Made by a program: the position numbers and the translations under genes. A stretch of DNA of 40,713 nucleotides from an uncultured Oscillospiraceae bacterium (GTDB taxonomy: Bacteria; Bacillota; Clostridia; Oscillospirales; Oscillospiraceae): assembly GCA_944387205.1 (NCBI GenBank), contig CALXDZ010000141.1, positions 1 to 40,713 of the forward strand, written 5' to 3'. Shown here piece after piece: positions 2,879-24,283 of the stretch (position 1 is the first letter of the stretch; each line of letters starts with the position of its first letter). The notes beneath the pieces are model-generated. The model had not been told where the DNA came from, searched no databases, and saw nothing but the letters and a program-made list of their open reading frames with translations.

Positions 2879-4456
2879 TCACATGCCGCTGGCACCGTAG
2901 TTGGACAAAACACGAGCGGAGGGGTCACTGACATCACAGCCCTTCCAGGAGCGGTTGGGCATCCAGAAGCCGGAGACCATGGGGGCCTGGCCGGGATAGC
3001 TGGCCTCGAACAGCTCCCGGTACAGCAGGCTCTCCTTGGTGAAGGGGGCGGCGAAGCTGTACAGCCGGCTGCGGCGGGCAAACTCCAGGTCGGTGTAGAG
3101 GCTCTCGGCATACTCCTTCAGGTCGTCCACCATGGAGTGGCCCACGGCGTCGGAGAAGGCGGCCTTTTCCCGCCACAGGATGTCCCGGGGCAGCAGGTCT
3201 CCCTCGAAGGCGCGGCGCAGCAGATACTTGCCCTTGCCGTAGGTGTTCACCTTCATGCGGGGGTCGATGGACATGACATAGCGCACAAAGTCCAGGTCTC
3301 CGAAAGGCACCCGGGCCTCCAGAGAGTTGACGCTGATGCACCGGTCCGCCCGGAGCACGTCATACATATAAAGCTCATCCACCCGCTTTTTGGCCTCCGC
3401 CTGGAAGGCGGCGGGGGAGGGAGCAAAGTCGGTGTACTTATAGCCGAAGAGCTCATCAGAGACCTCGCCAGTGAGCAGGACCCGGATGTCCGTGGTCTTG
3501 TGGATGGCCCGGCACACCAGGTACATGCCAACGCTGGCCCGGATGGTGGTGATGTCATAGGTGCCCAGAGCGGCCACCACCTCCGGCAGGGCCTGGATCA
3601 CATCGTCCCGGGTGATGATGACCTCCGTGTGGTCCGCACCCAGGTAATCCGCCGTCTGACGGGCGTACTTGAGATCGATGGCATCGGTGTCCATGCCGAT
3701 GGCGAAGGTGCGGATGGGCTTATCCAGCGCCCGGGCGGCGATGGCGCACACCAGGCTGGAATCCAGTCCGCCGGAGAGGAGGAAACCCAGCGGCGCGTCG
3801 GCGTCCAGCCGCTTTTCCACGGCAGCGGTGAGCTTTTCCCGGATGGTGCGGCAGACCGTGTCCAGACTGTCGTGGCAGTAGGCGGTGACGGTGGTCAGAT
3901 CGGCGTAGCGGACGAACTGGCCGTCGGCATAATAGTGGCCGGGAGGGAAGGGGCATACCCGGTCGCACAGACCCACCAGGTTTTTGGCCTCGCTGGCAAA
4001 AACGATGGCGCCGGTATGGTCATAGCCATAGAACAGCGGGCGAATGCCGATGGGGTCCCGGGCGGCAATCAGCATATCCTTTTCTCCGTCATAGAGCACC
4101 AGGGCGAACTCCGCGTCCAGCCGGGAGAACATCCCCAGGCCGTATTCCCGGTACAGGGGCAGCAGCAGCTCGCAGTCGCTGTCGCTGCGGAAGGTGTAAC
4201 GGCGGGAGAGCTGCTGGCGCAGGGTGCGCCAGCCGTAGAGCTCGCCGTTGCACACTACCATGTCCTTGCCCAGGGAGAAGGGCTGCATGCCGCTCTCATC
4301 CAGCCCCATGCTGGCCAGACGGTGGAAGCAAAGATACCCCGACGGGGTCTCCAGGATCCGGGACATGTCCGGTCCCCGGGACTGGGTCCGGTCGAAATAC
4401 GTCCGTACCTTGTCCTTGCTCAAGCTCTTCTTGCTGAATCCCATAATTGCACACAT
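2879..4456 (-). CDS. asnB: Asparagine synthase (glutamine-hydrolysing)
   Basis: Converts aspartate, glutamine and ATP to asparagine and glutamate. The protein (525 residues) begins MCAIMG, so Cys2 becomes the N-terminal nucleophile of the class II glutamine amidotransferase domain (residues about 2-190; CNGELYG at 69-75). The synthetase domain follows, with the ATP-pyrophosphatase loop SGGLDSS at 228-234 and LTGEVSDELFGYKY further on. It is somewhat shorter than E. coli AsnB (554). The start codon lies directly after the T tract of a T-box terminator, and its ribosome site GGAGG is inside that terminator stem. First gene of the asnB-glnN operon. Confidence 0.95.
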   Translation of the reverse strand: MCAIMGFSKKSLSKDKVRTYFDRTQSRGPDMSRILETPSGYLCFHRLASMGLDESGMQPFSLGKDMVVCNGELYGWRTLRQQLSRRYTFRSDSDCELLLPLYREYGLGMFSRLDAEFALVLYDGEKDMLIAARDPIGIRPLFYGYDHTGAIVFASEAKNLVGLCDRVCPFPPGHYYADGQFVRYADLTTVTAYCHDSLDTVCRTIREKLTAAVEKRLDADAPLGFLLSGGLDSSLVCAIAARALDKPIRTFAIGMDTDAIDLKYARQTADYLGADHTEVIITRDDVIQALPEVVAALGTYDITTIRASVGMYLVCRAIHKTTDIRVLLTGEVSDELFGYKYTDFAPSPAAFQAEAKKRVDELYMYDVLRADRCISVNSLEARVPFGDLDFVRYVMSIDPRMKVNTYGKGKYLLRRAFEGDLLPRDILWREKAAFSDAVGHSMVDDLKEYAESLYTDLEFARRSRLYSFAAPFTKESLLYRELFEASYPGQAPMVSGFWMPNRSWKGCDVSDPSARVLSNYGASGM

Positions 4457-4457
4457 G

Positions 4458-4526
4458 AAAAAAGCACCTCCGGATATTGCGCAGCATTCCTAAAAATTTT
4501 AGGACGAATGCTGCGATCCGCGGTGC
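4458..4526 (-). terminator. T-box terminator hairpin that also sequesters the asnB ribosome site
   Basis: On the minus strand GCACC-G-CGGAT pairs with ATCCG-G-AGGTGC, and an inner stem GCAGCATTC/GAATGCTGC extends it. Six T residues follow at once. The 3' strand of the stem contains GGAGG, the asnB ribosome site, and the ATG is one base past the T tract. The 5' strand overlaps the T-box sequence, so uncharged tRNA binding should open both the terminator and the ribosome site. Confidence 0.8.
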
Positions 4527-4782
4527 CACCTAATTTGCTGTCCTGAGACAGCCCCTTCAAGGCTCTGACAAGCCTGTGCGCGGTAACGGGCGCAATCCGT
4601 CTCCCCTACTGGCCGACCCTGTGGGGCGGCGTTGGGTTCGCAGCTCCGGAGTGTTCTTCTCACAGTCTCTTGCTGCAGGGTTTCCACTCTCCCCCGCTCA
4701 CTGGTGCAGAACCTCTGCGGTACTTTTCTCCATCTAAGCTTTATCACTATGAAATTCTTACGGTGTTGTTGCAAAAATTATG
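4458..4782 (-). ncRNA. T-box leader specific for tRNA-Asn
   Basis: The diagnostic T-box sequence AGGTGGCACCGCGG is at 4531-4518 on the minus strand. Upstream, stem I contains the AGTA and GGGAGAGTGG segments typical of the class. The triplet AAC sits just before ACTCCGGAG on the 3' side of stem I, where the specifier is expected. AAC is an asparagine codon, which matches the asparagine synthase it controls. High expression is expected when tRNA-Asn is uncharged. The 5' end is estimated from the promoter. Confidence 0.9.
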
Positions 4783-5022: not shown

Positions 5023-5640
5023 ATGAAAGTATTGCTGCTCAACGGAAGTCCTCGTCCTCAGGGCTGCACCTATACTGCTCTGCGGGAGGTGGCGGATGTC
5101 CTGGAGCATGAGGGCGTGGAGACGGAATTTTTGCATGTCACATCTCAGACGGCGGGATGCTCTGCCTGCGGACAGTGTGCCCGGACGGGGAAATGTATCG
5201 TGGATGACCAGGTCAACGCCGTGCTGGCACGGCTGGAGGAGTGGGACGGCCTGGTGGTGGGCTCTCCGGTATACTACGCCGGGGCTGCGGGCCAGCTGAC
5301 CGCCTTTTTGGACCGGCTGTTTTATGCCTCCGGCGGCCGCATGGCGGGAAAGCCGGCAGCGGCGGTGGTCTCCTGCCGCCGGGGCGGCGCCAGCGCGGCC
5401 TTCGACCGGCTCAACAAGTATTTCACCATCAGCGCCATGCCGGTGGTGTCCTCCCGGTACTGGAACCAGGTCCACGGCAACCGGCCCGAGGAGGTGCGCC
5501 AGGACGAGGATGGCATGCAGACCATGCGCATCCTGGGTCAGAACATGGCCTGGCTCCTCAAGTGCATCCAGGCCGGCGCTCAGGCCGGCGTCACTCTGCC
5601 GGAGCCGGAGGCGCCGGTCAAGACCAACTTCATCCGCTGA
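5023..5640 (+). CDS. Iron-sulfur flavoprotein / NAD(P)H-dependent FMN reductase family
   Basis: A 205-residue flavodoxin-fold protein. The N-terminal MKVLLLNGSPRPQGCT is the FMN phosphate-binding loop of the NADPH-dependent FMN reductase family, and VVGSPVYYAGAAGQLTAF is the second flavin loop. Between them Cys46, Cys49, Cys52 and Cys58 form a compact CX2CX2CX5C motif like that of iron-sulfur flavoproteins, which bind one [4Fe-4S] cluster beside FMN. It probably moves electrons in the cytoplasm; the partner is not shown. The start has AGGAGG seven bases upstream. It ends about 75 bases before the promoter of the hyd/nif-like operon and may be expressed separately, though a supply of low-potential electrons to that system is conceivable. 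Confidence 0.85.
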   Translation: MKVLLLNGSPRPQGCTYTALREVADVLEHEGVETEFLHVTSQTAGCSACGQCARTGKCIVDDQVNAVLARLEEWDGLVVGSPVYYAGAAGQLTAFLDRLFYASGGRMAGKPAAAVVSCRRGGASAAFDRLNKYFTISAMPVVSSRYWNQVHGNRPEEVRQDEDGMQTMRILGQNMAWLLKCIQAGAQAGVTLPEPEAPVKTNFIR

Positions 5641-5715: not shown

Positions 5716-5744
5716 TTGACCGGGGGAAAGGGGAGGGGTATAGT
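5716..5744 (+). promoter_or_regulatory. Promoter of the nitrogenase-like/HydEF operon
   Basis: TTGACC and TATAGT are separated by exactly 17 bases. Just before it, AATCCGCC and GGCGGATT (around 5689-5710) form a hairpin that may end the upstream transcript. The start would be near 5751, leaving a leader of about 240 bases. Confidence 0.75.
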
Positions 5745-5750
5745 GTGGAT

Positions 5751-5945
5751 AGTCAGAAAAATAACAATCTTTCAGAGGGCCTTTTGTTCCCCCCCCCGAA
5801 GGACCGGCGCAGCGCCCCACCTGACATCGAAATCACGCATTGAGATGGAAGACGACCGCCTGCCGCAGCAGCTGCTCCCAAAGGGGGCTTTTTGTGCTTG
5901 GCCGCGTCTTCCCAAAAGCAGGGAAGGCGCGTTTTTTATTTTCCG
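5751..5945 (+). promoter_or_regulatory. Structured leader with internal terminator, class unknown
   Basis: About 200 bases of GC-rich, non-coding leader lie between the promoter and the ribosome site of the first operon gene. It includes a run of ten C residues, the self-complementary AGCAGCTGCT, and ends in a strong terminator (5903-5942). Promoter, structured leader, terminator and then gene is the arrangement of an attenuator or riboswitch. I could not match it to the lysine, cobalamin, SAM, TPP, FMN or c-di-GMP classes. Confidence 0.5.
5903..5942 (+). terminator. Leader terminator upstream of the operon
   Basis: CGCGTCTTCCC pairs over eleven positions (one G-T) with GGGAAGGCGCG around a seven-base loop, followed by six T residues. 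It sits between the promoter at 5716-5744 and the first gene at 5990, so it must be read through for the operon to be expressed. Confidence 0.75.
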
Positions 5946-5989
5946 GCTCGGGCGGAAAACTGTCCAATGCAAAACAAGGAGGAAACGGC

Positions 5990-6247
5990 ATGGAGACCAG
6001 AGTGGCCATCATCGGCATCATCGTGGAGAACGAGGACTCCGTGGAGGAGCTCAACGGCATCCTCCACACCTACGGCAGCTACATCATCGGACGCATGGGC
6101 ATCCCCTACCGGGCCCGGGGCGTCAACATCATTGCCGTGGCGGTGGACGCGCCCCAGGAAGTCATCAGCGCCCTGTCCGGCAAGCTGGGACGGCTCAATG
6201 GCGTCAGCGCCAAGGCCGCCTACTCCAACGTCATCACCAAGGCATGA
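5990..6247 (+). CDS. TM1266-type iron-only hydrogenase system regulator
   Basis: An 85-residue protein of the TM1266 family, small ACT/NikR-C-like domains found beside [FeFe] hydrogenase maturation genes. Recognised by VAIIGIIVENEDSVEELN, the central YGSYIIGRMGIPYR and GVNIIAVAVDAP. The molecular role is not established for the family; a metal- or ligand-sensing role is inferred from the fold. The ATG has AAGGAGG six bases upstream. The stop overlaps the next ATG (ATGA), so it is translationally coupled to the permease. A second domain of the same type is fused to the ATPase two genes on (residues about 273-350), sharing the YIVGRMGMPYP core. Confidence 0.85.
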   Translation: METRVAIIGIIVENEDSVEELNGILHTYGSYIIGRMGIPYRARGVNIIAVAVDAPQEVISALSGKLGRLNGVSAKAAYSNVITKA

Positions 6248-7266
6248 GAAGAGCGGCAAGAGTAGGGGGGCTGTCCCCCCAGGCCGCTGTGGTGCTGTGC
6301 CTTCTGCCGGTGGCGGCGGCCCTTGTCTCACTGTGCATCGGGCGCATGGGACTGCCCCTGGGGGAGGTGCTGCGGGGCATCGGCGCCGCTCTGGGACTGG
6401 ATGTGACGCTGGGAGATCAGACGGAGCAGATCCTCTGGACCATCCGGATGCCCCGGATTTTGCTGGCGCTGCTGGTGGGGGCGGGACTGTCCGTTTCCGG
6501 CTGCGCCTTCCAGAGCCTCTTTGCCAACCCCCTGGCCACGCCGGACACCCTGGGGGTGGCCTCCGGGGCCAGCTTCGGCGCAGCCCTGGCGCTGCTGATG
6601 GGGTGGCACCTGCTGGGGGTCCAGGCCCTGGCCCTGGTGTGCGGCATGGGGGCGGTGGCCCTGACCTGGTTGTCCGTGGCCGGCCGGGATCGGACCAACA
6701 GCACCGTCATCCTGGCGGGCATCATGGTGGGGTCCTGGTTTTCCGCCCTGGTGTCCCTGGTGAAGCTGGCGGCGGACACCGAGTCCCAGCTGCCCGCCAT
6801 CACCTACTGGCTCATGGGCAGCTTCAACTCCGCCGGATACAGCTCCCTGGCTCTGGGCGCGCCGCCCATTCTGCTGGGGATGCTGGTTTTGTATCTGCTG
6901 CGGTGGCGGCTGAACATCCTGCCCCTTTCCGAGGACGAGGCCCGGGCCAGCGGCACCGACGTGCGGCTGCTGCGGGGCGTCACCGTGCTGTGCGCCACCG
7001 CCATCACCGCCTCCTGCGTGTCCATGTGCGGCCAGGTGGGTTGGGTGGGGCTGCTGGTGCCCCACATGTGCCGGATGAAGTTCGGCAACAACCACCTGGC
7101 CCTGGTGCCCGCCTCCGCCTGCGTGGGCGCCGCCTTTCTGGCGGCGGTGGACACCCTGGCCCGCAGCATCTCCTCGGCTCAGATCCCCGTCTCGGCCCTG
7201 ACGGCGGTCATCGGTGCGCCCTTCTTCATCGCCCTGGTGCGCAAGACAGGGGGGTGGCGGCTGTGA
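6244..7266 (+). CDS. FecCD-type ABC transporter permease
   Basis: A 340-residue very hydrophobic membrane protein of the FecCD/BtuC family, which forms the channel for iron-siderophore, heme or cobalamin uptake. Family features are RMPRILLALLVGAGLSVSGC near the N-terminus, FANPLATPDTLGVASGASFGA (the Gly-rich loop), the ILAGIMVG segment, and GQVGWVGLLVPHMCRM near the C-terminus. The predicted helices number about eight to ten. ATGA overlap with the preceding gene, and a GTGA overlap with the ATPase gene. The substrate cannot be told from sequence. The context (HydE/F and NifHDK-like proteins) suggests an iron- or metal-bearing complex, or a tetrapyrrole. Confidence 0.9.
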   Translation: MRRAARVGGLSPQAAVVLCLLPVAAALVSLCIGRMGLPLGEVLRGIGAALGLDVTLGDQTEQILWTIRMPRILLALLVGAGLSVSGCAFQSLFANPLATPDTLGVASGASFGAALALLMGWHLLGVQALALVCGMGAVALTWLSVAGRDRTNSTVILAGIMVGSWFSALVSLVKLAADTESQLPAITYWLMGSFNSAGYSSLALGAPPILLGMLVLYLLRWRLNILPLSEDEARASGTDVRLLRGVTVLCATAITASCVSMCGQVGWVGLLVPHMCRMKFGNNHLALVPASACVGAAFLAAVDTLARSISSAQIPVSALTAVIGAPFFIALVRKTGGWRL

Positions 7267-8375
7267 GACTTTCCGTGGAGCACGGCTCCTTTTCCTACCG
7301 GCCGGACGCCCCGGTCCTCAAGGACGTGAGCTTTGCCGCCGGGCCCGGAGACCTGGTGGCCATCCTGGGCCCCAACGGGGCGGGCAAGACCACACTGCTG
7401 CGGTGCATGATGGGCTTTCTGCGCTGGTCCTCAGGCAGGAGTCTGCTGGATGAAAAGGATATCCGCACCATTCCTCACCGCAAGCTCTGGCAGGCCCTGG
7501 CCTATGTGCCCCAGGCCAAGGGGGCGGCGGTGGCCTACACCGTGGAGGAGATGGTCCTCCTGGGCCGGGCCAGCCGCTGCGGCTATCTCGGGCAGCCCTC
7601 CCGGGAGGATCTCAAAGAGGCCCGGCAGGTGATGGAGCGGCTGGGGCTGACGGCCCTGGCCAAAAGACGGTGCACGGAGCTCAGCGGCGGACAGCTGCAG
7701 ATGGTGCTCATCGCCCGGGCTCTGGCGGCCCGGCCCCAGGTGCTGATTCTGGACGAGCCCGAGTCCAACCTGGACTTCCGCAACCAGCTTCTGGTGCTGG
7801 ACACCCTGTCGGAGCTGGCCCGGGAGGGGCTCACCTGCCTGTTCAACACCCACTATCCCGCCCACGCCCTCCAGCGGGCCAACCGCTCGCTGCTGCTGGG
7901 GGCGGATGGGGAGACCCGCTTCGGCGACACCGCCCAGGTGGTCACCGAGGCCAACCTCCAAAGCGCCTTCGGCGTCCGGGCGGTCATCGGCGAGATCGAG
8001 ACCCCCTACCGCATGGTGCGGGACGTGGTGCCCCTGGAGGCCGCCGACGGCTCCGCCGCCCTGACGGCGGAGGACGGGCGGGCCATCGCCGTTGTGGCCA
8101 TCATCACAACGGACTACGAGGAGGCGGGGCAGATCAACGCCCTGCTCCACACCTGCAAGCCCTACATCGTAGGGCGCATGGGGATGCCCTATCCCGACGG
8201 GGGCGTCTTTATCATCAATGTCACGTTGGACGCGCCGGAGACGGTGGTGCGGTGCCTGGTGGGGCAGCTGGAACGGCTGCCCGGCGTCAGCGTCAAGACC
8301 ACCTTCGCCCGGCCGGAGCAGGAGAGAGGAGGGACGGACCGTGGACAACCGGGAACTGCTGCACAAGCTCCATGA
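7263..8375 (+). CDS. ABC transporter ATPase fused to a TM1266-type domain
   Basis: A 370-residue two-domain protein. Residues 1-245 are a FepC/BtuD-type ATPase with Walker A GPNGAGKTT (36-44), signature ELSGGQ (139-144), Walker B LILDEPES (161-168) and switch His197. Residues about 273-350 repeat the fold of the first operon protein (AVVAIITTDYEEAGQ, YIVGRMGMPYP, GVFIINVTLDAP). The start is a GTG overlapping the permease stop (GTGA); longer upstream reading is only an open frame over the permease gene. A regulatory domain fused to an importer ATPase suggests transport is gated by whatever the TM1266 domain senses (inference). Its 3' end overlaps hydE by 35 bases. Confidence 0.85.
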   Translation: MRLSVEHGSFSYRPDAPVLKDVSFAAGPGDLVAILGPNGAGKTTLLRCMMGFLRWSSGRSLLDEKDIRTIPHRKLWQALAYVPQAKGAAVAYTVEEMVLLGRASRCGYLGQPSREDLKEARQVMERLGLTALAKRRCTELSGGQLQMVLIARALAARPQVLILDEPESNLDFRNQLLVLDTLSELAREGLTCLFNTHYPAHALQRANRSLLLGADGETRFGDTAQVVTEANLQSAFGVRAVIGEIETPYRMVRDVVPLEAADGSAALTAEDGRAIAVVAIITTDYEEAGQINALLHTCKPYIVGRMGMPYPDGGVFIINVTLDAPETVVRCLVGQLERLPGVSVKTTFARPEQERGGTDRGQPGTAAQAP

Positions 8376-9408
8376 GGAGCAAAACCTGACGCCGGAGCAG
8401 TGGCGGCAGCTGCTGGGGAGTTGGACCGAGGAGGACCGGCAGCTGGCGGCGGAGCTGGCCAGGGCCGTGGCTCAGGCGCGCTTCGGCCGGGACATCTTCT
8501 TCCGGGGCATCGTGGAGTTCACCAACTACTGCAAAAACAACTGCTGCTACTGCGGCATCCGCCGGGGCAATGAAAAGGCAGTGCGCTACCGCCTGACGCC
8601 GGAGGAGATCCTAGAGTGCTGCCAGGAGGGCTACGCCTTGGGCTACCGCACCTTCGTGCTTCAGGGCGGCGAGGACGGCTGGTGGACCGACCAGCGCCTT
8701 TCTGCCCTGGTATCCGTCATCCGGGAGACCTTTCCCGACTGCGCCGTGACCCTCTCCGTGGGGGAGCGGAGCCGGGAGAGCTACCAAAGGCTCTTTGACG
8801 CCGGCGCCGAGCGGTACCTTCTGCGCCACGAGACCATCTCCGAGGCTCACTACGGCCGCCTCCACCCGCCGGAGCTGTCCTGGAAAAACAGGATGCGGTG
8901 CCTGCGGGACCTCAAGGAGATCGGCTACCAGACCGGCTGCGGGTGCATGGTGGGCACACCGGGGCAGACGCCGGAGATGCTGGCGGAGGAGATGCAGTTC
9001 CTCACCGCCTTCCGGCCCCAGATGATCGGCCTGGGCCCCTTTCTGCCCCACAAGGACACCCCCTTCCGAGGAGAAAAGCCCGGCAGCCCGGAGACCACCC
9101 TCTTTTTGCTGAGCCTGTGCCGTCTGGCCCTGCCGGATGTGCTGCTGCCCTCCACCACTGCCCTGGGCACCGCCCGGGACGACGGACGGGCCCTGGGGGT
9201 GCTGGCGGGGGCCAACGTCATCATGCCCAACCTCTCCCCCAGGTCGGTGCGGGAGAAGTACATGCTCTATGACAACAAGGCCGGCACCGCCCTGGACGCC
9301 CGGGCGGGGCTGGAGACCCTGGGGCGGCAGATGGAGGCCATCGGCTACCGTCTGGTGTCTGCCCGGGGAGATTACAGGGAACGAGACAGAGAGGAGAAAT
9401 GGCCATGA
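8341..9408 (+). CDS. hydE: [FeFe] hydrogenase H-cluster radical SAM maturase HydE
   Basis: A 355-residue radical SAM enzyme that acts with HydG and HydF to build the diiron part of the H-cluster. The cluster-binding Cys64, Cys68 and Cys71 (CX3CX2C) lie in [18 protein letters not shown], a HydE hallmark. [40 protein letters not shown] and the C-terminal [10 protein letters not shown] also fit HydE rather than biotin synthase or PylB. The GTG start has GAGGAGGG upstream and overlaps the preceding gene. The stop overlaps the next ATG (ATGA). HydG is not encoded in the window. A role in maturing the nitrogenase-like complex instead of, or in addition to, hydrogenase cannot be excluded. Confidence 0.9.
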
Positions 9409-10166
9409 TCAAACTGGCATTTTATGGAAAGGGCGGCATCGGCAAGTCCACCACCGTGTCCAATCTGGCGGCGGCCATGGCGCAGCAGGGGCTGCGGGTG
9501 ATGCAGGTGGGTTGCGACCCCAAGGCGGACTCCACCATCGCCCTGCGCCGGGGCCAGGCGCTGCCCACGGTGCTGGAGCTGGTGCGGCAGGGAAGCTTTG
9601 CCCTGGAGGACATGGTCCGGGAGGGCTTTGCCGGCGTGGTGTGCGTGGAGGCCGGCGGCCCCACCCCCGGCGTGGGCTGCGCCGGCCGAGGCATCATCAC
9701 CGCCCTGGAAAAGCTCCAGGAGAAGGGAGCCTATGAGGTCTACCGGCCCGACGTGGTGCTCTATGACGTGCTGGGCGACGTGGTGTGCGGCGGCTTTTCC
9801 ATGCCCATGCGCAAGGGCTATGCCGACGAGGTGTTCATCCTCACCTCCGGGGAGAACATGGCCCTCCACGCGGCGGCCAACATCGCCATGGCCCTGGACC
9901 ACTTCAAGGACCGGGGCTATGCCCGGCTGAGAGGCCTGATCCTCAACCGCCGGGACGTGCCCCGGGAGGAGGAGAAAGTAGCGGAGCTGGCGGAGGACCT
10001 CCACAGCACCATCATTGGCTCCCTCCACCGCAGTGAGACGGTCCAGGAGGCCGAGGAGCTGGGCAAGACGGTGCTGGAGGCCTTCCCGGACAGCGCCATG
10101 GCGGAGGAGTACCGGGCCCTGGCCCGGCAGGTCCTCGGGCAGGCAGGAGGGGAGCAGGTATGCTGA
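9405..10166 (+). CDS. NifH-like nitrogenase reductase homologue
   Basis: A 253-residue MinD/NifH-type iron protein. P-loop GKGGIGKST at 8-16, switch region CDPKADST at 37-44, and both [4Fe-4S] ligands: Cys92 in GVGCAGRG and Cys128 in [10 protein letters not shown]. It should form a dimer that passes ATP-driven electrons to the NifDK-like partner. True NifH is about 270-295 residues; this is shorter at the C-terminus. I place the start at the second ATG (9405), which overlaps the hydE stop and sits eight bases from GAGGAG; the ATG at 9399 is only two bases from it. No nifE, nifN or nifB follows, so it is not a standard nitrogen-fixation set. Chlorophyll, F430 or alkane-reductase relatives are alternatives of the same superfamily. 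Confidence 0.85.
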
Positions 10167-11488
10167 CGAGAGTGAACGGTCCGGTGGACGACACCGGCGC
10201 GGCGGTGGCTATAAAGGATGCCTCCTTTCCTGCGCCCTTTGCCTCTGGGCTGGAGTACGCCGCCCCGGCCCGGGGCACCTGGAACATCGTCCATGTGGGG
10301 ATGCTGATCCCCCAGGCCCACCAGATCTTCGTCTGCGCCCAGGGTTGTCTCCGGGGCGTGGTGCTGACGGCGGCGGAGATGGGGGCCCAGGAGCGGTTCT
10401 CCACCGTGGCCATCGAGGAGCACAACGTGCTGGAGGGGGACCTGGAGGAGCTGCTGGTGGACGGTGTCACCGACATTCTCCGGCGGCTGCCCAAGCGTCC
10501 ACCGGCGGTGCTGATATACACCAGCTGCATCCACCACTTCCTGGCCTGTGACCTGCCCCTGGTCTATCAGCGGCTGGGGGAGCGGTTCCCGGAGGTGGAC
10601 TTTGTGGACTGCTACATGAACCCCATCATGCGCAAGAGCGGCCTGACCCCGGACCAGCTCATGCGGCGCCAGCTCTACGCCGCCCTCAAGCCCCGGCCCC
10701 GGGAGGAGCGCACCGTGGGCATCTTAGGCAACTGCTTCCCCCTGGAGGAGTCCAGCGAGCTGATGCGGATGCTCCGGGGCGGGGGATGGACCGTCCGGGA
10801 CATCCACTACTGCCGGAGCTATGCGGAGTATCAGCGTCTGGCCGGATGCGAAACCTTCCTGACCACTTTCCCGGCGGCCCGGGCGGGGGGAGAGGCCCTG
10901 GCCCAGCGGCTGGGGCGGGAGCACCTGTATCTGCCCGGCTGCTGGGGCTACGACGAGATCGGGAGGAACCTGGACACCCTGGCGGAAGCCTTGGAGCTGC
11001 CCCGGGAGGAGGACGGTGAGGCCGTGGAGCGGGCCGAGGAGGCCCTGGCGGCAGCCCACCGAATCATCGGGCAGTGCCCGGTGGTCATCGACTACACCGC
11101 CACGGCCCGGCCTCTGGGTCTTGCCCGGCTGCTCTTGGCGCACGGCTTCCAGGTCCGGACGGTATATGCCGACAGCTTCTCCGGCGAGGAGAAGGAGGAC
11201 TTTTTGTGGCTCCAGGCCCACGCGCCGGAGCTGACGCTGCGGCCCACGGTCCAGGTGAAGATGCGCCTGCTGCCCCGGCAGCGGCCGGAAAAGACCCTGG
11301 CTATCGGCCAGAAGGCCGCCTACTTCACCGCCAGCCGCTTTTTCGTCAATCTGGTGGAGGGCGGCGGCCTTTACGGCTACGACGGCGTCCGCCGGATGGC
11401 CCAGCTGATGCTGGACGCCTATCTTCATGAAAGGGACACCAGGACCCTCATTCAGGTGAAGGGCCTGGGGTGCGGGTGCTGCGTATGA
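10160..11488 (+). CDS. NifD-like nitrogenase component 1 homologue
   Basis: A 442-residue member of the NifD/BchN/CfbD superfamily. The conserved motif [20 protein letters not shown] carries Cys59 and Cys63, and [12 protein letters not shown] (Cys123, Cys130) matches the NifD region around the third P-cluster ligand. The Cys before this region that NifD uses (Cys62 in Azotobacter) has no evident match. The protein ends in GCGCCV (Cys438, 440, 441), a tail not found in NifD as I know it. It starts at ATG 10160 behind AGGAGGGG, overlapping nifH-like by seven bases, and overlaps the next gene by ATGA. Substrate unknown; it belongs among the uncharacterised nitrogenase-like (group IV) proteins. 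Confidence 0.8.
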
Positions 11489-12642
11489 GACAGACAGCCA
11501 GTATCATTTCCACCTACACCGCCGACGTGTCCGGCGTGTGCTCCGCCCTCTTCGAGCTGGGGGGCATGACCGTCATGCATGATGCCTCCGGCTGCAACTC
11601 CACCTACAACACCCACGACGAGCCCCGGTGGTACGACACCGACAGTCTGGTGTTTCTCTCCGGCCTTTCGGAGCTGGAGGCGGTGATGGGGGACGACGAG
11701 AAGTTCATCGGGGACGTGGCGGAGGCTGCCCGGGAGCTCCATCCCGCCTTTATCGCCCTGGCCGGGACCCCCATCCCCATGGTCATCGGCACCGATTTTG
11801 CCGCCCTGGCTGCCCTCATCCAGCAGCGCACGGGCATCCCCACCTTCGGCTTTGCCACCAATGGGATGCACTCCTACCTCTCCGGCGCCTCCCAGGCCTT
11901 TGCCACCCTGGCGGAGCGTCTGGTGCAGGAGCCCCGGGAGAGGCGAAAGGAGCTGTCCGTGAACCTCCTGGGCGTGACGCCTCTGGACTTCTCCGTGGGC
12001 CCTATGGTGGGCTCCCTGCGCCGCCGTTTGGAGGCGGAGGGCATCGCCGTGGCCTCCTGCTGGGCCATGGGCGACAGCCTGGAGAATATTTGCCGGGCCG
12101 GCGAGGCGACGGTGAACCTGGTGGTGTCCTGGTGCGGCCTGGCGGCTGCCCGGGTGCTGCGCCGCCGGTTCGGCACCCCCTATGTGGTGGGCGCTCCTGT
12201 GGGGGAGGCCTTCACCCATGTGCTGGCGGAGGAGATCCGGGCCGCGGCCCGGGACGGGCAGGACCGCCTGCCTCTGACCAAGCGGCCTCCGGCGGGGCCT
12301 GGGGACCTGACCCTCATCGCCGAAAGCGTCACCGGCGGCTCCCTGGCAGCAGCCATGGCCCTGGAACAGGGGAAACGGGTGCGATTGGTGTGCCCCCTGG
12401 AGACGGAGGATGGCTTTTTGCTGCCCGGCGATGTGCGGGCCCGGGACGAGGTGGAGCTGGAGCCCCTTTTTAAGGAGGCCGGCGGCATCATCGCAGACCC
12501 CCTCTATCGTCCTCTGTGTCCGCCGGAGGTGCCCTTTTACGAGTTGCCCCATGAGGCCTTTTCCGGCCGCATCTATCGCCGGGACATCCAGGACTTTATA
12601 GACCACATCCCATTTTTTGAAGAAAAGAGGAAGAGATCATGA
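11485..12642 (+). CDS. NifK-like nitrogenase component 1 homologue
   Basis: A 385-residue component-1 protein, probable partner of the NifD-like subunit. GVCSALFELGG (Cys19) and DASGCNSTYN (Cys37) match the first two NifK cluster ligands. The third site, TC before EVIGDD in NifK, reads LAGTPIPMVIGTD here, so that cysteine is missing. The cluster between the subunits must therefore be altered, perhaps a single [4Fe-4S] cluster as in the BchNB and CfbD types (inference). ATG 11485 overlaps the upstream stop; a GTG at 11470 is possible but lacks that coupling. The 3' end overlaps the lipoprotein gene (ATGA). Confidence 0.75.
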   Translation: MRQTASIISTYTADVSGVCSALFELGGMTVMHDASGCNSTYNTHDEPRWYDTDSLVFLSGLSELEAVMGDDEKFIGDVAEAARELHPAFIALAGTPIPMVIGTDFAALAALIQQRTGIPTFGFATNGMHSYLSGASQAFATLAERLVQEPRERRKELSVNLLGVTPLDFSVGPMVGSLRRRLEAEGIAVASCWAMGDSLENICRAGEATVNLVVSWCGLAAARVLRRRFGTPYVVGAPVGEAFTHVLAEEIRAAARDGQDRLPLTKRPPAGPGDLTLIAESVTGGSLAAAMALEQGKRVRLVCPLETEDGFLLPGDVRARDEVELEPLFKEAGGIIADPLYRPLCPPEVPFYELPHEAFSGRIYRRDIQDFIDHIPFFEEKRKRS

Positions 12643-13778
12643 AACTGTGGAAAAGAAGCGTATGTCTCCTGCTGGCCCTGACATTGGTCCTGGCCCTGGC
12701 CGGATGCGGCCAGTCGTCCCAGCCCGCCTCCTCCGGCGGGGAGGAGAGCCAGGAGGGCGACACCATCACCATCGTGGACCACAACGACAATACGGTGCAG
12801 GTGCCCCGGGACGTTCAGCGCATCGTGGTGTGCGACATCCTGCCCCTGCCCTCTGTGCTGGCGGTGTTCTTTGACTCCGCCGAGAAGATCGTGGGCATGA
12901 CCGACACCAGCATGAGCGCCGCGGCAAACGGCCTGCTGGGCCAGCTCTACCCGGAGATCCTGGACGCCGAGACCGGCTTCATCTCCGGCACGGAGGTCAA
13001 CATCGAGGAGCTGATGACCCTGAACCCGGACGTGGTGTTCTACAGTGCCTCCAGCCCCCAGCTGGGCCAGCAGCTCACCGAGGCGGGCTTTGCCGCTGTG
13101 GCCATCTCCGCCAACAAGTGGGACTATGACTGCATCGAGACGCTGGAGAATTGGTTCGCCCTGCTGGGCCAGATCTTCCCGGAAAACGACAAGACCGAGC
13201 TGGTCCAGAGCTACAGCCAGGAGGCCTATGATCTGGTCCAGGAGCGGGTGTCCGGCCTCAGCGACGAGGAGCGGGAGCGGGTGTTCTTCCTCTTCAAGTA
13301 CAGCGAGAACTCCATCCTCACCTCCGGCACCCACTTCTTTGGCAACTGGTGGGCAGAGGCGGTGGGCGCCGTCAACGTAGCCCAGGAGCTGGATGTGGAC
13401 AACCAGGCGGAGGTCAACCTGGAGCAGGTCTATGCCTGGGATCCGGACATGATCCTCATCACCAACTTCACCTCCGCCCAGCCTCAGGATCTGTACGACA
13501 ACACCGTGGGCAGCTATGACTGGAGCGGCGTCTCCGCTGTGAAGAACCAGCAGGTGTACAAGATGCCCCTGGGCATGTACCGCAGCTATACCCCCGGTGT
13601 GGACACGCCGGTGACGCTGCTGTGGCTGGCCCAGACTGTGTATCCCAATCTCTTCGCGGACATCGACATCGTGGAAAAGACCAAGGACTACTACAAGACC
13701 GTGTTCGGCGTGGAGCTGACCGAGGAGCAGGCGGCGTCCATCTTCGCCCCCGTCTCTGACGCGGCCGCCGGCTTTTAA
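12639..13778 (+). CDS. Metal-complex ABC transporter substrate-binding lipoprotein
   Basis: A 379-residue lipoprotein. The signal sequence ends in the lipobox LALAGC, so Cys23 should be lipidated and the protein held outside the membrane. The rest is a type III (helical-backbone) binding protein of the FepB/BtuF class: VQVPRDVQRIVVCDILPLPSVL near the start, VNIEELMTLNPDVVF, and WDPDMILITNF later. It completes the importer formed by the permease (6244) and ATPase (7263) of the same operon, although five genes separate them. The ligand is unknown; iron chelates, heme-like molecules and corrinoids are all handled by this class. Confidence 0.9.
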   Translation: MKLWKRSVCLLLALTLVLALAGCGQSSQPASSGGEESQEGDTITIVDHNDNTVQVPRDVQRIVVCDILPLPSVLAVFFDSAEKIVGMTDTSMSAAANGLLGQLYPEILDAETGFISGTEVNIEELMTLNPDVVFYSASSPQLGQQLTEAGFAAVAISANKWDYDCIETLENWFALLGQIFPENDKTELVQSYSQEAYDLVQERVSGLSDEERERVFFLFKYSENSILTSGTHFFGNWWAEAVGAVNVAQELDVDNQAEVNLEQVYAWDPDMILITNFTSAQPQDLYDNTVGSYDWSGVSAVKNQQVYKMPLGMYRSYTPGVDTPVTLLWLAQTVYPNLFADIDIVEKTKDYYKTVFGVELTEEQAASIFAPVSDAAAGF

Positions 13779-13789
13779 GGGGACGGGCC

Positions 13790-15001
13790 ATGGGACTCAA
13801 TGACACGCCCTCCGGCGAGCGGGTGCACATCGGCTTTTTCGGCCGCCGCAACGCGGGAAAATCCAGCCTGGTCAACGCCGTCACCGGCCAGGAGCTGTCG
13901 GTGGTGTCCCCCACCGCCGGCACCACCACCGACCCGGTGCGCAAGGCCATGGAGCTGCTGCCCCTGGGGCCGGTGGTGATCCTGGACACCCCGGGCTTTG
14001 ACGACGAGGGGAGCCTGGGGCAGCTGCGGGTGCGCCGGACCCGGCAGACCCTCAACCGCACGGACATCGCCGTGCTGGTGGTGGACGGCACTGTGGGCCT
14101 GACAGGATGCGACCGGGAGCTGCTGGACCTTTTCCAAGAGAAAAATATCCCTTATCTCACGGTGTGGAACAAGGGGGACTTGCCGGAAAGCTGTCCTCCG
14201 CCTGAGTACGGCGCCCTGGTGGTCAGTGCCCGCACCGGAGCGGGCATCCGGGAGCTGAAGGAGCGCATCGCCGCCCTGGCTCCCAAGGAGGAGGCCATGC
14301 CGCCTCTGGCCCGGGACCTGGTGGGGCCGGAAGGACTGGCGGTGCTGGTGACCCCCATCGACAGCGCCGCCCCCAAGGGGCGGCTGATCCTGCCTCAGCA
14401 GCAGACCATCCGGGACCTGCTGGACGGCGGAGCCGGGGCGGTGGTGACCCGGGAGACGGAGCTGGAGGAGACGCTGAAGCGTTTGGCTAGCCCTCCGGAG
14501 GTGGTCATCACCGACAGCCAGGCCTTCCGCCAGGTGGCCCGGGTGGTGCCGCCGGAGGTGCCGCTGACCTCCTTCTCCATCCTCATGGCCCGGCACAAGG
14601 GCTTCCTGGAGACGGCGGTAAAGGGCGTGGCAGCCATAGAGCGTCTTTGTGACGGAGACACGGTGCTGATGGCTGAGGGCTGCACCCACCACCGCCAGTG
14701 CGGTGACATCGGCACGGTGAAGCTGCCGAAGTGGCTCCGGGAGCACACCGGAAAGCAGCTGAACTTTGCCGTCTGCTCCGGTGCCGACTTCCCGGAGGAC
14801 CTCTCGCCCTATGCCCTGGTGGTCCACTGCGGCGGGTGCATGCTGGGGGCCCGGGAGGTGCTCAGCCGGATGCGCTGCGCCGGGGACCAGGGGGTGCCCA
14901 TCACCAACTACGGTACCTGCATCGCCGCCATGCTGGGCATCCTGCCCCGTGCGCTGGCCCCCATCCCCGGGATGGCGGAGCTACTGAAAACTGGAAAATA
15001 A
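13790..15001 (+). CDS. hydF: [FeFe] hydrogenase maturation GTPase HydF
   Basis: A 403-residue HydF, the scaffold that carries the diiron precursor of the H-cluster and hands it to the apo-hydrogenase. N-terminal GTPase: GRRNAGKS (18-25), DTPG (66-69), NKGD (127-130). C-terminal cluster domain: CTH (Cys298, His300) and HCGGC (346-350), the CxH...HCxxC ligand set of HydF. Last gene of the operon, 11 bases after the lipoprotein gene, followed by a terminator. With HydE in the same operon and a hydrogenase 7 kb away, a true maturation role is likely. The missing partner HydG must be elsewhere. Confidence 0.95.
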   Translation: MGLNDTPSGERVHIGFFGRRNAGKSSLVNAVTGQELSVVSPTAGTTTDPVRKAMELLPLGPVVILDTPGFDDEGSLGQLRVRRTRQTLNRTDIAVLVVDGTVGLTGCDRELLDLFQEKNIPYLTVWNKGDLPESCPPPEYGALVVSARTGAGIRELKERIAALAPKEEAMPPLARDLVGPEGLAVLVTPIDSAAPKGRLILPQQQTIRDLLDGGAGAVVTRETELEETLKRLASPPEVVITDSQAFRQVARVVPPEVPLTSFSILMARHKGFLETAVKGVAAIERLCDGDTVLMAEGCTHHRQCGDIGTVKLPKWLREHTGKQLNFAVCSGADFPEDLSPYALVVHCGGCMLGAREVLSRMRCAGDQGVPITNYGTCIAAMLGILPRALAPIPGMAELLKTGK

Positions 15002-15035
15002 AAAAGCTGTAAAGCAGAACTCCTGTTCAAAAAGC

Positions 15036-15070
15036 GCCTGCCGCCTCAAAAGGACGGCAGGCACTTTTTG
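15036..15070 (+). terminator. Terminator of the nitrogenase-like/HydEF operon
   Basis: GCCTGCCG pairs with CGGCAGGC around an eleven-base loop and is followed by ACTTTTT, 35 bases past the hydF stop. Confidence 0.8.
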
Positions 15071-18198: not shown

Positions 18199-18243
18199 AT
18201 CTTCAGCGCGGGCCCTTTTCCTGCCGCGATGTTTCCGTAAGCA

Positions 18244-18401
18244 GATAGCGCAACCGCGGCAGCGCCGCGGACAGTCCCGGAGATGTTCTCCCCGGGCCCA
18301 CCCCGCCTCCATACCTGGAAAGCGGAATTCGGCGGAGTCGCTTCCTGCCACGCTCACAGCCCGTCGGCTCCCGTGGCGCTCGTCTCGTCCGCACCTCTAT
18401 C
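18244..18401 (-). ncRNA. Lysine riboswitch controlling dapA-dapB-dapH
   Basis: On the minus strand the aptamer opens with GATAGAGGTGCG (P1 and the conserved GAGGTGCG), contains GCCGAA in the middle and ACTGTC near the end, and closes with GCTATC, which pairs with the opening GATAG. These are the core conserved segments of the lysine (L box) riboswitch. Followed at once by the terminator at 18167-18198. Confidence 0.92.
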
Positions 18402-18410
18402 GTTTTGCAA

Positions 18411-24025: not shown

Positions 24026-24082
24026 GGCCACAACAAATCAATACCGTATTGCTTCGGTCGTCCCAAGGCGGCCGGAGACAGT

Positions 24083-24240
24083 GGTAGAGGCGCGGGACGC
24101 ATCAGTACCTCTCTCCCAGGGCTACAGGCAGCCGGAGGAAGGGAAAGGGCCACCGCCGAAGTGGGAACGCCGCCTGAAGGGCCGACCTGCTGGGACGCCG
24201 GAGAAGATCCGTCGGACTGTCACGTATGTGGAGCGCTATC
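24083..24240 (+). ncRNA. Second lysine riboswitch, before an amino-acid ABC transporter
   Basis: The aptamer opens GGTAGAGGCGCGGGACGC, contains CAGTA, GGAAGGGAAAGGG and GCCGAAG, and ends with GACTGTCA and GAGCGCTATC, which closes P1 with the opening GGTAG. These are the conserved blocks of the lysine riboswitch in order. It differs enough in stems from the one at 18244-18401 to be an independent copy, not a recent duplicate. Confidence 0.9.
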
Positions 24241-24283
24241 ATTGGCTGACAGGATTTTTCCTGTCCCTGCATCGTTACGTTGC

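Follow-up and report, generated by a model that had tools for sequence, protein, structure and literature searches.

The window analysed here, a stretch of 40,713 nucleotides from an uncultured Oscillospiraceae bacterium, contains one tight operon of nine co-directional genes (5990-15001), in which a nitrogenase-like NifH/D/K set is combined with the [FeFe]-hydrogenase maturases HydE and HydF, with TM1266 domains and with a FecCD-type importer. The NifH/D/K clade of the window is referred to as HDK1 and its subunits as H1, D1 and K1. On the best reading of the comparative data, HDK1 is the core of a HydG-independent pathway of H-cluster assembly that supplies an Fe-CO/CN precursor to HydE. In the usual system HydG converts tyrosine to the Fe(CO)2(CN) building block, and it is regarded as supplying the H-cluster with its CO and CN ligands; according to the title of one paper (PMC3105041), all five of these ligands reportedly come from tyrosine. 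HydG was missing from HDK1 genomes with few exceptions and the two were nearly mutually exclusive, and HDK1 is therefore read as a HydG substitute. The genomic case that the HDK1 module takes the place of HydG is strong, and we regard this replacement as probable. From the gene content, the conserved motifs, the near-exclusion with HydG and the alternation of importer and Hyp genes around HDK1, all directly observed, we infer that HDK1 does the job of HydG; the chemical steps proposed in the Discussion are hypothetical.

HydG is missing from most HDK1 genomes

The genome from which the window comes (2.4 Mb, 86% complete) encodes three [FeFe]-hydrogenase catalytic proteins (PF02906) carrying all three H-cluster motifs. 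HydG was not found in this 86% complete genome, where the HydG model matched HydE only, at 52 bits. The wider comparison rested on a class sample of 245 genomes from the class, of which 166 were HydF-positive in a genome-wide search confined to this sample (165 over the cut-off). Strong relatives of the NifD-like protein (42% identity or more) occurred in 10 of the 245 genomes, counted as HDK1-positive, and HydG was over the cut-off in 156 of the 245. All ten HDK1-positive, HydF-positive genomes were HydG-negative, none being HydG-positive, and the 156 HDK1-negative, HydF-positive genomes comprised 152 with HydG and four without it (Fisher p = 3e-13 for the table of 166 genomes, kinship ignored). 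In this table a genome was HydG-positive at E ≤1e-60, except for G210, which was counted as HydG-negative because its duplicate G292 scored 222 bits against a cut-off of 312 and its neighbourhood (L240) was of the ThiH type; G074 (E 1.4e-68, probably below the HydG cut-off) was kept as HydG-positive. Two duplicate genomes with identical contig coordinates were removed, G268 (a copy of G228) and G292 (a copy of G210). Counted from the other side, HDK1 was present in 10 of the 14 HydG-free, HydF-positive genomes; three of the remaining four are incomplete (73, 65 and 85%), and the fourth, G160, is 99% complete and a genuine exception.

The contrast held within lineages. In all four families with both kinds among the HydF-positive genomes (f1, f5, f44 and f46) it ran in the same direction, and a single genus (g61) contained four genomes having HDK1 without HydG and two having HydG without HDK1. 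On a HydF tree of 56 rows (one fetched locus, L232, was lost) the HDK1 label switched seven times, at least four of them on supported branches, and across four independent pairs on this tree HydG was opposite to HDK1 in 3.9 on average and went the same way in none.

HydG exceeded the cut-off in 7 of 50 and 1 of 30 named HDK1 genomes (two batches, for which completeness is not given). For named genomes and class sample together, after removal of two duplicates, HydG was over the cut-off in 8 of 88 HDK1 genomes and was not found in the other 80, compared with 156 positives among the 245 genomes of the class sample. A HydG hidden below the threshold was considered and rejected on the basis of five genomes: among the HydG-model matches of 150-230 bits, those in these five were followed up and look like ThiH from thiamine operons, and the two of these proteins that were scanned were ThiH (535 and 495 bits; cut-off 380). 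Beside all five matches lies a gene of 256 aa with a start that we take to be ThiG-like; the two such neighbours scanned gave no match to any ThiG model.

Importer and Hyp genes alternate around HDK1

Ranked by similarity to the NifD-like query, the named loci are the best 80 of 522, a choice that favours close relatives. HydE or HydF lay within 9 kb of the NifD-like gene in 50 of them, and HydE, HydF or TM1266 was present in 64, many loci being cut by contig ends. The linkage first noticed in the window thus recurs elsewhere and, together with the occurrence of the clade in the class sample, is not due to chance. Two forms were distinguished. In form A, the window type, genes for a FecCD permease, an ATPase and a substrate-binding protein (SBP) surround HDK1; form B has no importer and combines HDK1 with Hyp genes and usually with a second nitrogenase-like set, HDK2. 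Importer genes alone were found in 58 of the 80 loci and Hyp genes alone in 15 (13 with D2); no locus had both, and seven had neither, five of these on contigs shorter than 7 kb (L085 and L155 are longer). Locus L083 was scored as importer-type from one SBP at the locus edge, and L124 as Hyp-type from one HypE. Genome-wide, HypF was present in 19 of 19 form-B genomes and in 1 of 38 form-A genomes tested, the latter also having a short [NiFe] match; neither HypD nor HypF was found in the window genome. The joined D1+K1 tree, with 78 rows kept (K >300 aa, D >380 aa), required four form switches, at least three of them on supported branches. Since no locus had both modules and the form switched repeatedly, the importer and the Hyp-HDK2 module appear to be interchangeable around one HDK1 core. 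The original prediction, made from the window alone, is supported in part: it had not noticed that HydG is missing, that HydG and HDK1 almost exclude each other, or that a second form with Hyp genes exists.

The Hyp proteins of form B retain family features. The examples tested exceeded their cut-offs (HypC, 70 bits against 48; HypD, 364 against 193; HypE, 414 against 252; HypF, 752 against 466), and in two examples HypE ends in PRIC and the cysteine motifs of HypD are kept, residues which presumably have their usual roles. HypC was recognised in 18 of 19 form-B loci by a start-motif scan (L133 being the exception), and one of these was checked against the family. A [NiFe]-hydrogenase large subunit was not found in 12 of the 19 form-B genomes, among them all six that belong to the class sample (97-99% complete). 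Hyp therefore has no known client there, and its chemistry is most simply explained as serving [FeFe]-hydrogenase in these genomes. In the other seven (six Clostridium and one Megamonas), which have a [NiFe] large-subunit match, Hyp may serve both kinds of hydrogenase. HydF lies within five of the six form-B loci of the class sample.

Metal complexes are the usual cargo of FecCD-type importers. The SBP of form A is highly conserved across 49 sequences (that of the window included), which fits one specific ligand, and 35 of 47 related ATPases bear a C-terminal TM1266 domain, which ties the importer to the hydrogenase system.

Related HDK sets and iron acquisition as a rival explanation

Importer genes in 58 of the 80 loci are also what would be expected if HDK1 were an iron-acquisition enzyme, which would reduce an imported ferric chelate or tetrapyrrole and release iron for H-cluster assembly among other uses. 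Two further sets fit this explanation. Type-3 HDK (L075-L078) consists of HDK with FecCD, ATPase and SBP genes, and HydE, HydF and TM1266 were not present in the fetched type-3 loci. D3 of three importer-only genomes groups with D1 (support 100/99), and the placement of K3 relative to K1 and K2 was not settled by the tree. A plasmid of Sporomusa termitida (pSPTER, L211, 3949-12080) carries a different and more distant NifHDK-like set, close to an iron importer with two permeases, to TonB siderophore receptors and to an esterase-like gene. The proteins of this set do not group with the type-3 rows, and it is possibly a siderophore-reducing enzyme. Nevertheless, iron acquisition leaves the missing HydG unexplained, as well as the exchange of the importer for HypCDEF and HDK2, as Hyp proteins make cyanide ligands (PMC9431212) and not free iron. 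An iron-release role of HDK1 is possible in principle, but we consider it unlikely, as it does not account for the HydG and Hyp patterns. The original prediction had proposed that HDK1 reduces an imported metal complex or tetrapyrrole, thereby releasing iron or a precursor for the H-cluster; its broad sense, the supply of a precursor, is supported, and its narrow sense is the rival weighed here.

Type-3 HDK was also tried as a member of the HydG-free system and was dropped, because HydG is present in three of its four genomes, while the fourth lacks both HydG and HydF. In one type-3 locus (L076, 6112-8413), genes for a CobW/HypB/UreG-type GTPase, an ABC ATPase and a solute-binding protein lie beside the HDK set.

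HDK1 matches no named family among those tested

The NifH-like protein of HDK1 aligns with NifH over residues 1-246 and scores below the curated cut-offs for CfbC (320.3 bits; 402) and NifH (317; 394). The NifD- and NifK-like proteins match only Pfam PF00148 and pass no NCBIfam cut-off, those for BchY (26.4 bits for the NifD-like protein; 425.15) and BchB (55.9 bits for the NifK-like protein; 490.35) not being reached. In a tree built with NifD/K/E/N, BchN/B and BchY/Z references, Mar, Isr and Cfb not being included, D1 and K1 each formed one clade with 100/100 support, and D2 and K2 formed clades supported at 99/97 and 100/98. The original prediction had named placement within a characterised clade as the outcome that would speak against a new substrate; D1 and K1 stand apart from NifDK, NifEN, BchNB and BchYZ, a result that does not extend to MarDK, IsrDK and CfbD, and their deeper placement is unsure owing to long branches. 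Mar chains (9d9u, 9fmg) scored weakly with the D and K profiles. By these sequence comparisons the HDK1 clade matched no named family among those tested, and the candidate role of a tetrapyrrole reductase of known type was rejected, as no NCBIfam cut-off was passed and the clades are separate.

AlphaFold models of the D subunit (pLDDT 90.1) and the K subunit (pLDDT 84.6) both matched nitrogenase component-1 folds, with NifEN as the best structure match of D and BchB as that of K. In low-identity alignments, Cys63 and Cys123 of D align with NifD P-cluster cysteines, which we take to be Cys88 and Cys154, and Cys37 of K aligns with a NifK P-cluster cysteine, presumably Cys95. D1 has an additional invariant Cys59, and the NifD cysteine that we number Cys62 is not kept. 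The column of the cofactor-anchoring cysteine, presumably Cys275 of NifD, contains cysteine in each of the two NifD and two NifE references of the low-identity alignment, but in only 1 of 17 D1 sequences and in no D2 or D3 sequence. This pattern of conserved and missing cysteines suggests that HDK1 would hold a single [4Fe-4S] cluster between D and K and no FeMo-type cofactor, and would be nearer to BchNB than to nitrogenase. The absence of nifB, nifE and nifN homologues noted earlier was confirmed among the operon genes, a statement that covers these genes only, as no genome-wide search was made.

HydE, HydF and their hydrogenases

The late steps of H-cluster assembly look normal in HDK1 genomes, and only the first step differs: the HydE of the window aligns with solved HydE over nearly its full length and keeps CxxxCxxC, and the HydF aligns with a solved relative over nearly its full length and keeps CxH...HCxxC. 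All 58 HDK1 genomes tested had HydE over the cut-off (single copy at E 1e-60 in 52 of them), HydF was present in all ten HDK1 genomes of the class sample, and a [FeFe]-hydrogenase domain was found in 63 of 64 genomes tested, the exception being G262. It had been suggested earlier that frequent separation of the HDK1 genes from HydE and HydF would count against a link. In the Hyp form they do often lie apart on the chromosome, yet HydE was present in all HDK1 genomes tested.

These data bear on a second explanation, in which the nitrogenase-like enzyme reduces an imported substrate by means of an organometallic cofactor that HydE and HydF (and Hyp) have assembled for it. The closeness of HydE or HydF to HDK1 in 50 of the 80 loci would suit it, and the original prediction had listed it as its second reading. 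As HydE is mostly single-copy and hydrogenases are present nearly everywhere, HydE must also serve HydA; HydE and HydF keep their cluster cysteines, and the cofactor-anchoring cysteine is not conserved in D1, D2 or D3. This explanation is therefore not supported, and we judge it improbable.

A changed H-cluster motif was likewise examined as a trait of HDK1. The first motif was TSCSP, and not TSCCP, in 24 of 33 HydA loci (L175-L204 and L025-L027), all from HDK1 genomes; the single TSCSP protein scanned belongs to group A6. Three TSCSP loci (L179, L189 and L190) come from genomes that also have HydG, and the motif was for this reason rejected as tied to HDK1.

Acetogens without HydG

A published comparison of eight Clostridium acetogens reported that five of them, including C. 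ljungdahlii, C. ragsdalei and C. carboxidivorans, have HydE and HydF without a HydG, and that five of the eight have HypC/D/E/F without HypA/B (PMC9431212, 2022). In C. autoethanogenum the HypFCDE genes are listed there under the tags CLAU_RS01730-01745. For the missing HydG the paper offers scenarios and no straightforward explanation: an atypical radical SAM protein of about 450 aa as a possible HydG in acetogens other than C. autoethanogenum, to which HydG was assigned from motifs, and the use of free CO and CN, with reference to weak HydG-free activation in vitro. We found form B in C. carboxidivorans (L097), C. ljungdahlii (L098) and C. ragsdalei (L099). The HydG model gave no match at E ≤1e-30 in C. 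ljungdahlii and C. ragsdalei, and matched only ThiH in C. carboxidivorans. A single HypF was found in C. ljungdahlii, so the HypF of PMC9431212 should be the one in the form-B operon. Apart from PMC9431212, searches of open-licence PMC papers, preprints excluded, brought up none that points to a HydG-free route or to nitrogenase-like genes tied to HydE and HydF; PMC8003979 and PMC9431491 contain some of the relevant terms. A term search of the main text of a gene-essentiality paper on C. autoethanogenum (PMC9004356) found no HypD, nitrogenase or maturation.

That HydG was lost because cells use trace free CO and CN, with HDK linked to HydE and HydF by shared anaerobic regulation only, would agree with the weak in vitro activation discussed in PMC9431212 and with G160, which lacks both HydG and HDK1, but is very hard to reconcile with HDK1 in 10 of the 14 HydG-free, HydF-positive genomes of the class sample, with the repeated parallel swaps on the HydF tree and with Hyp genes lacking a [NiFe] client.

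Organisation of the operon and other features of the window

The order of the operon genes is TM1266, FecCD permease, ABC ATPase-TM1266 fusion, HydE, NifH-like, NifD-like, NifK-like, Peripla_BP_2 lipoprotein and HydF (Table 1). The identities read from the sequence in the original prediction were borne out, including the presence of two of the three [FeFe] maturases: HydE, HydF and TM1266 exceeded curated cut-offs, and the FecCD and NifHDK-like proteins were confirmed by Pfam. The description of ATGA/GTGA overlaps throughout was too broad. Seven of the eight junctions do overlap, four of them by 4 nt and the others by 35, 10 and 7 nt; the sole non-overlapping junction, between the SBP and HydF genes, is an 11-nt gap. 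The group B1 hydrogenase encoded further downstream is a likely client. The region of the hairpin upstream of the first gene matched no Rfam family above the gathering score, and an RNA leader was rejected, as the fold was also no better than that of shuffled sequences (z -0.06). An inverted repeat downstream of HydF was seen by eye within 5716-15070, and the terminator scan reported none there. An FMN reductase-like gene (5023-5640) ends 349 bp upstream of the operon and was not counted as a member.

Table 1. Features of the operon, its upstream region and the hydrogenase gene of the window
Feature	Position	Strand	Evidence and remarks
Promoter-like site upstream of operon	5716..5744	+	10/12 consensus match; not evidence of function
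Terminator-like hairpin with T run, possible attenuator	5903..5931	+	58 nt upstream of first gene, downstream of promoter-like site
TM1266-family protein, 85 aa	5990..6247	+	TIGR03959, 113.5 bits (cut-off 60.8)
FecCD-type permease, 340 aa	6244..7266	+	PF01032, 274.3 bits
Importer ATPase with C-terminal TM1266 domain, 370 aa, GTG start	7263..8375	+	PF00005, 112.2 bits; PF21699, 65.6 bits at 275-346
HydE radical SAM maturase, 355 aa, GTG start	8341..9408	+	TIGR03956, 519.4 bits (cut-off 254.6)
NifH-like ATP-dependent reductase of HDK1, 255 aa	9399..10166	+	PF00142, 293.2 bits
NifD-like subunit of HDK1, 442 aa	10160..11488	+	PF00148, 62.1 bits
NifK-like subunit of HDK1, 385 aa	11485..12642	+	PF00148, 99.7 bits
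Importer substrate-binding lipoprotein, 379 aa	12639..13778	+	PF01497, 67 bits
HydF GTPase maturase, 403 aa	13790..15001	+	TIGR03918, 541.5 bits (cut-off 325.55)
Monomeric [FeFe]-hydrogenase, group B1, 520 aa	22282..23844	+	TIGR04105, 617.5 bits (cut-off 450); TSCCP, PCAAK and CPGGC motifs

Outside the operon, the window contains two lysine riboswitches (18238-18407 on the minus strand, 75.8 bits; 24077-24246 on the plus strand, 76.3 bits), the former preceding genes that read like dapA, dapB and dapH (by reading, not by family search), and a T-box leader (4497-4745 on the minus strand, 100 bits) upstream of a gene (2879-4456) that by eye reads like asparagine synthetase.

Discussion

We propose that HydE and HydF act as usual and that HDK1 replaces HydG. 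HDK1, with probably one [4Fe-4S] cluster between D and K, would be powered by ATP and by low-potential electrons that the NifH-like protein delivers, and would convert an iron-ligand precursor, X, into an Fe(CO)x(CN)y synthon for HydE. In form B, X would be made in the cell: HypF and HypE would derive cyanide from carbamoyl phosphate, Fe(CN)x(CO) would be bound by HypC and HypD as the iron scaffold, and HDK1 and HDK2 would carry out low-potential, ATP-driven steps, e.g., the reduction of CO2 to CO or a change of ligand or redox state on the iron. In form A, X or its parts would be imported by the FecCD-type transporter, standing in for the product of the Hyp-HDK2 module, and the TM1266 domain of the ATPase might sense the status of the pathway and act like the regulatory domain of MetN, an analogy that we assume. 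We tentatively put forward, as a possibility short of an even chance, a second, tyrosine-independent route to the diatomic ligands of the H-cluster: HydE would receive an Fe(CO)(CN) complex that a nitrogenase-like enzyme has made or remodelled, this complex coming from Hyp chemistry (carbamoyl phosphate) in acetogens or being imported, as in the window.

Several points weigh against a replacement of HydG by HDK1. A sign test on the four independent pairs alone gives p = 0.125; four pairs cannot reach significance, so the case for the swap draws its strength from the tree in combination with the table. Of the 88 HDK1 genomes, 8 also have HydG (C. drakei, C. thailandense, two Intestinibacter bartlettii records and four others), and some of the absences of HydG in named genomes may be assembly gaps. 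G160 (L081; 99% complete) has TM1266, HydE, HydF and two HydA proteins, with no match to HydG, HDK1 or HypF. In acetogens other than C. autoethanogenum, the atypical radical SAM protein of about 450 aa has been proposed as a possible HydG (PMC9431212). The named form-B loci often lie far from HydE and HydF (3 of 15 and 2 of 15 within 9 kb, respectively), and form A is without an identified cyanide source. Finally, the ancestral role of HDK may have been in iron uptake or the handling of iron chelates, since type-3 HDK occurs with importers and without hydrogenase genes and the Sporomusa set lies beside siderophore receptors.

The proposed replacement of HydG by HDK1 offers a named and testable answer to the missing HydG of acetogens, namely a nitrogenase-like enzyme acting with Hyp proteins or an importer. 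If it is true, the assembly of a hydrogenase cofactor joins the roles of the nitrogenase superfamily, and the biosynthesis of [FeFe]- and [NiFe]-hydrogenases is linked. The imported-complex route, if true, would be the scavenging of an organometallic cofactor precursor; we know of no other system in which such a precursor is taken up by a dedicated importer. These questions are relevant to the H2 metabolism of rumen and gut bacteria and of gas-fermenting acetogens.

Relation to known systems

The proposed system shares HydE, HydF, TM1266 and its hydrogenase clients with the HydEFG system. It differs in that HydEFG includes HydG, whereas HDK1 genomes mostly lack HydG and have the nitrogenase-like HDK instead. 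Compared with HypCDEF assembly of [NiFe]-hydrogenase, form B likewise has HypF, HypC, HypD and HypE, over their cut-offs in the examples tested, but its Hyp genes adjoin HDK sets and often occur without a [NiFe] large subunit. BchLNB (DPOR), BchXYZ, MarHDK and IsrHDK resemble HDK1 in combining a NifH-like reductase with two PF00148 subunits, whereas CfbCD has one component-1 subunit (CfbD), and HDK1, with two component-1 genes, misses the CfbC cut-off. The Mar, Nfa and Isr gene sets include a radical SAM B gene (PMC11423573); the radical SAM gene of the HDK1 operon is HydE. The positions of the cluster cysteines are partly common to HDK1, Nif and Bch and the K model is closest to BchB, while D1 and K1 form clades separate from NifDK, NifEN, BchNB and BchYZ.

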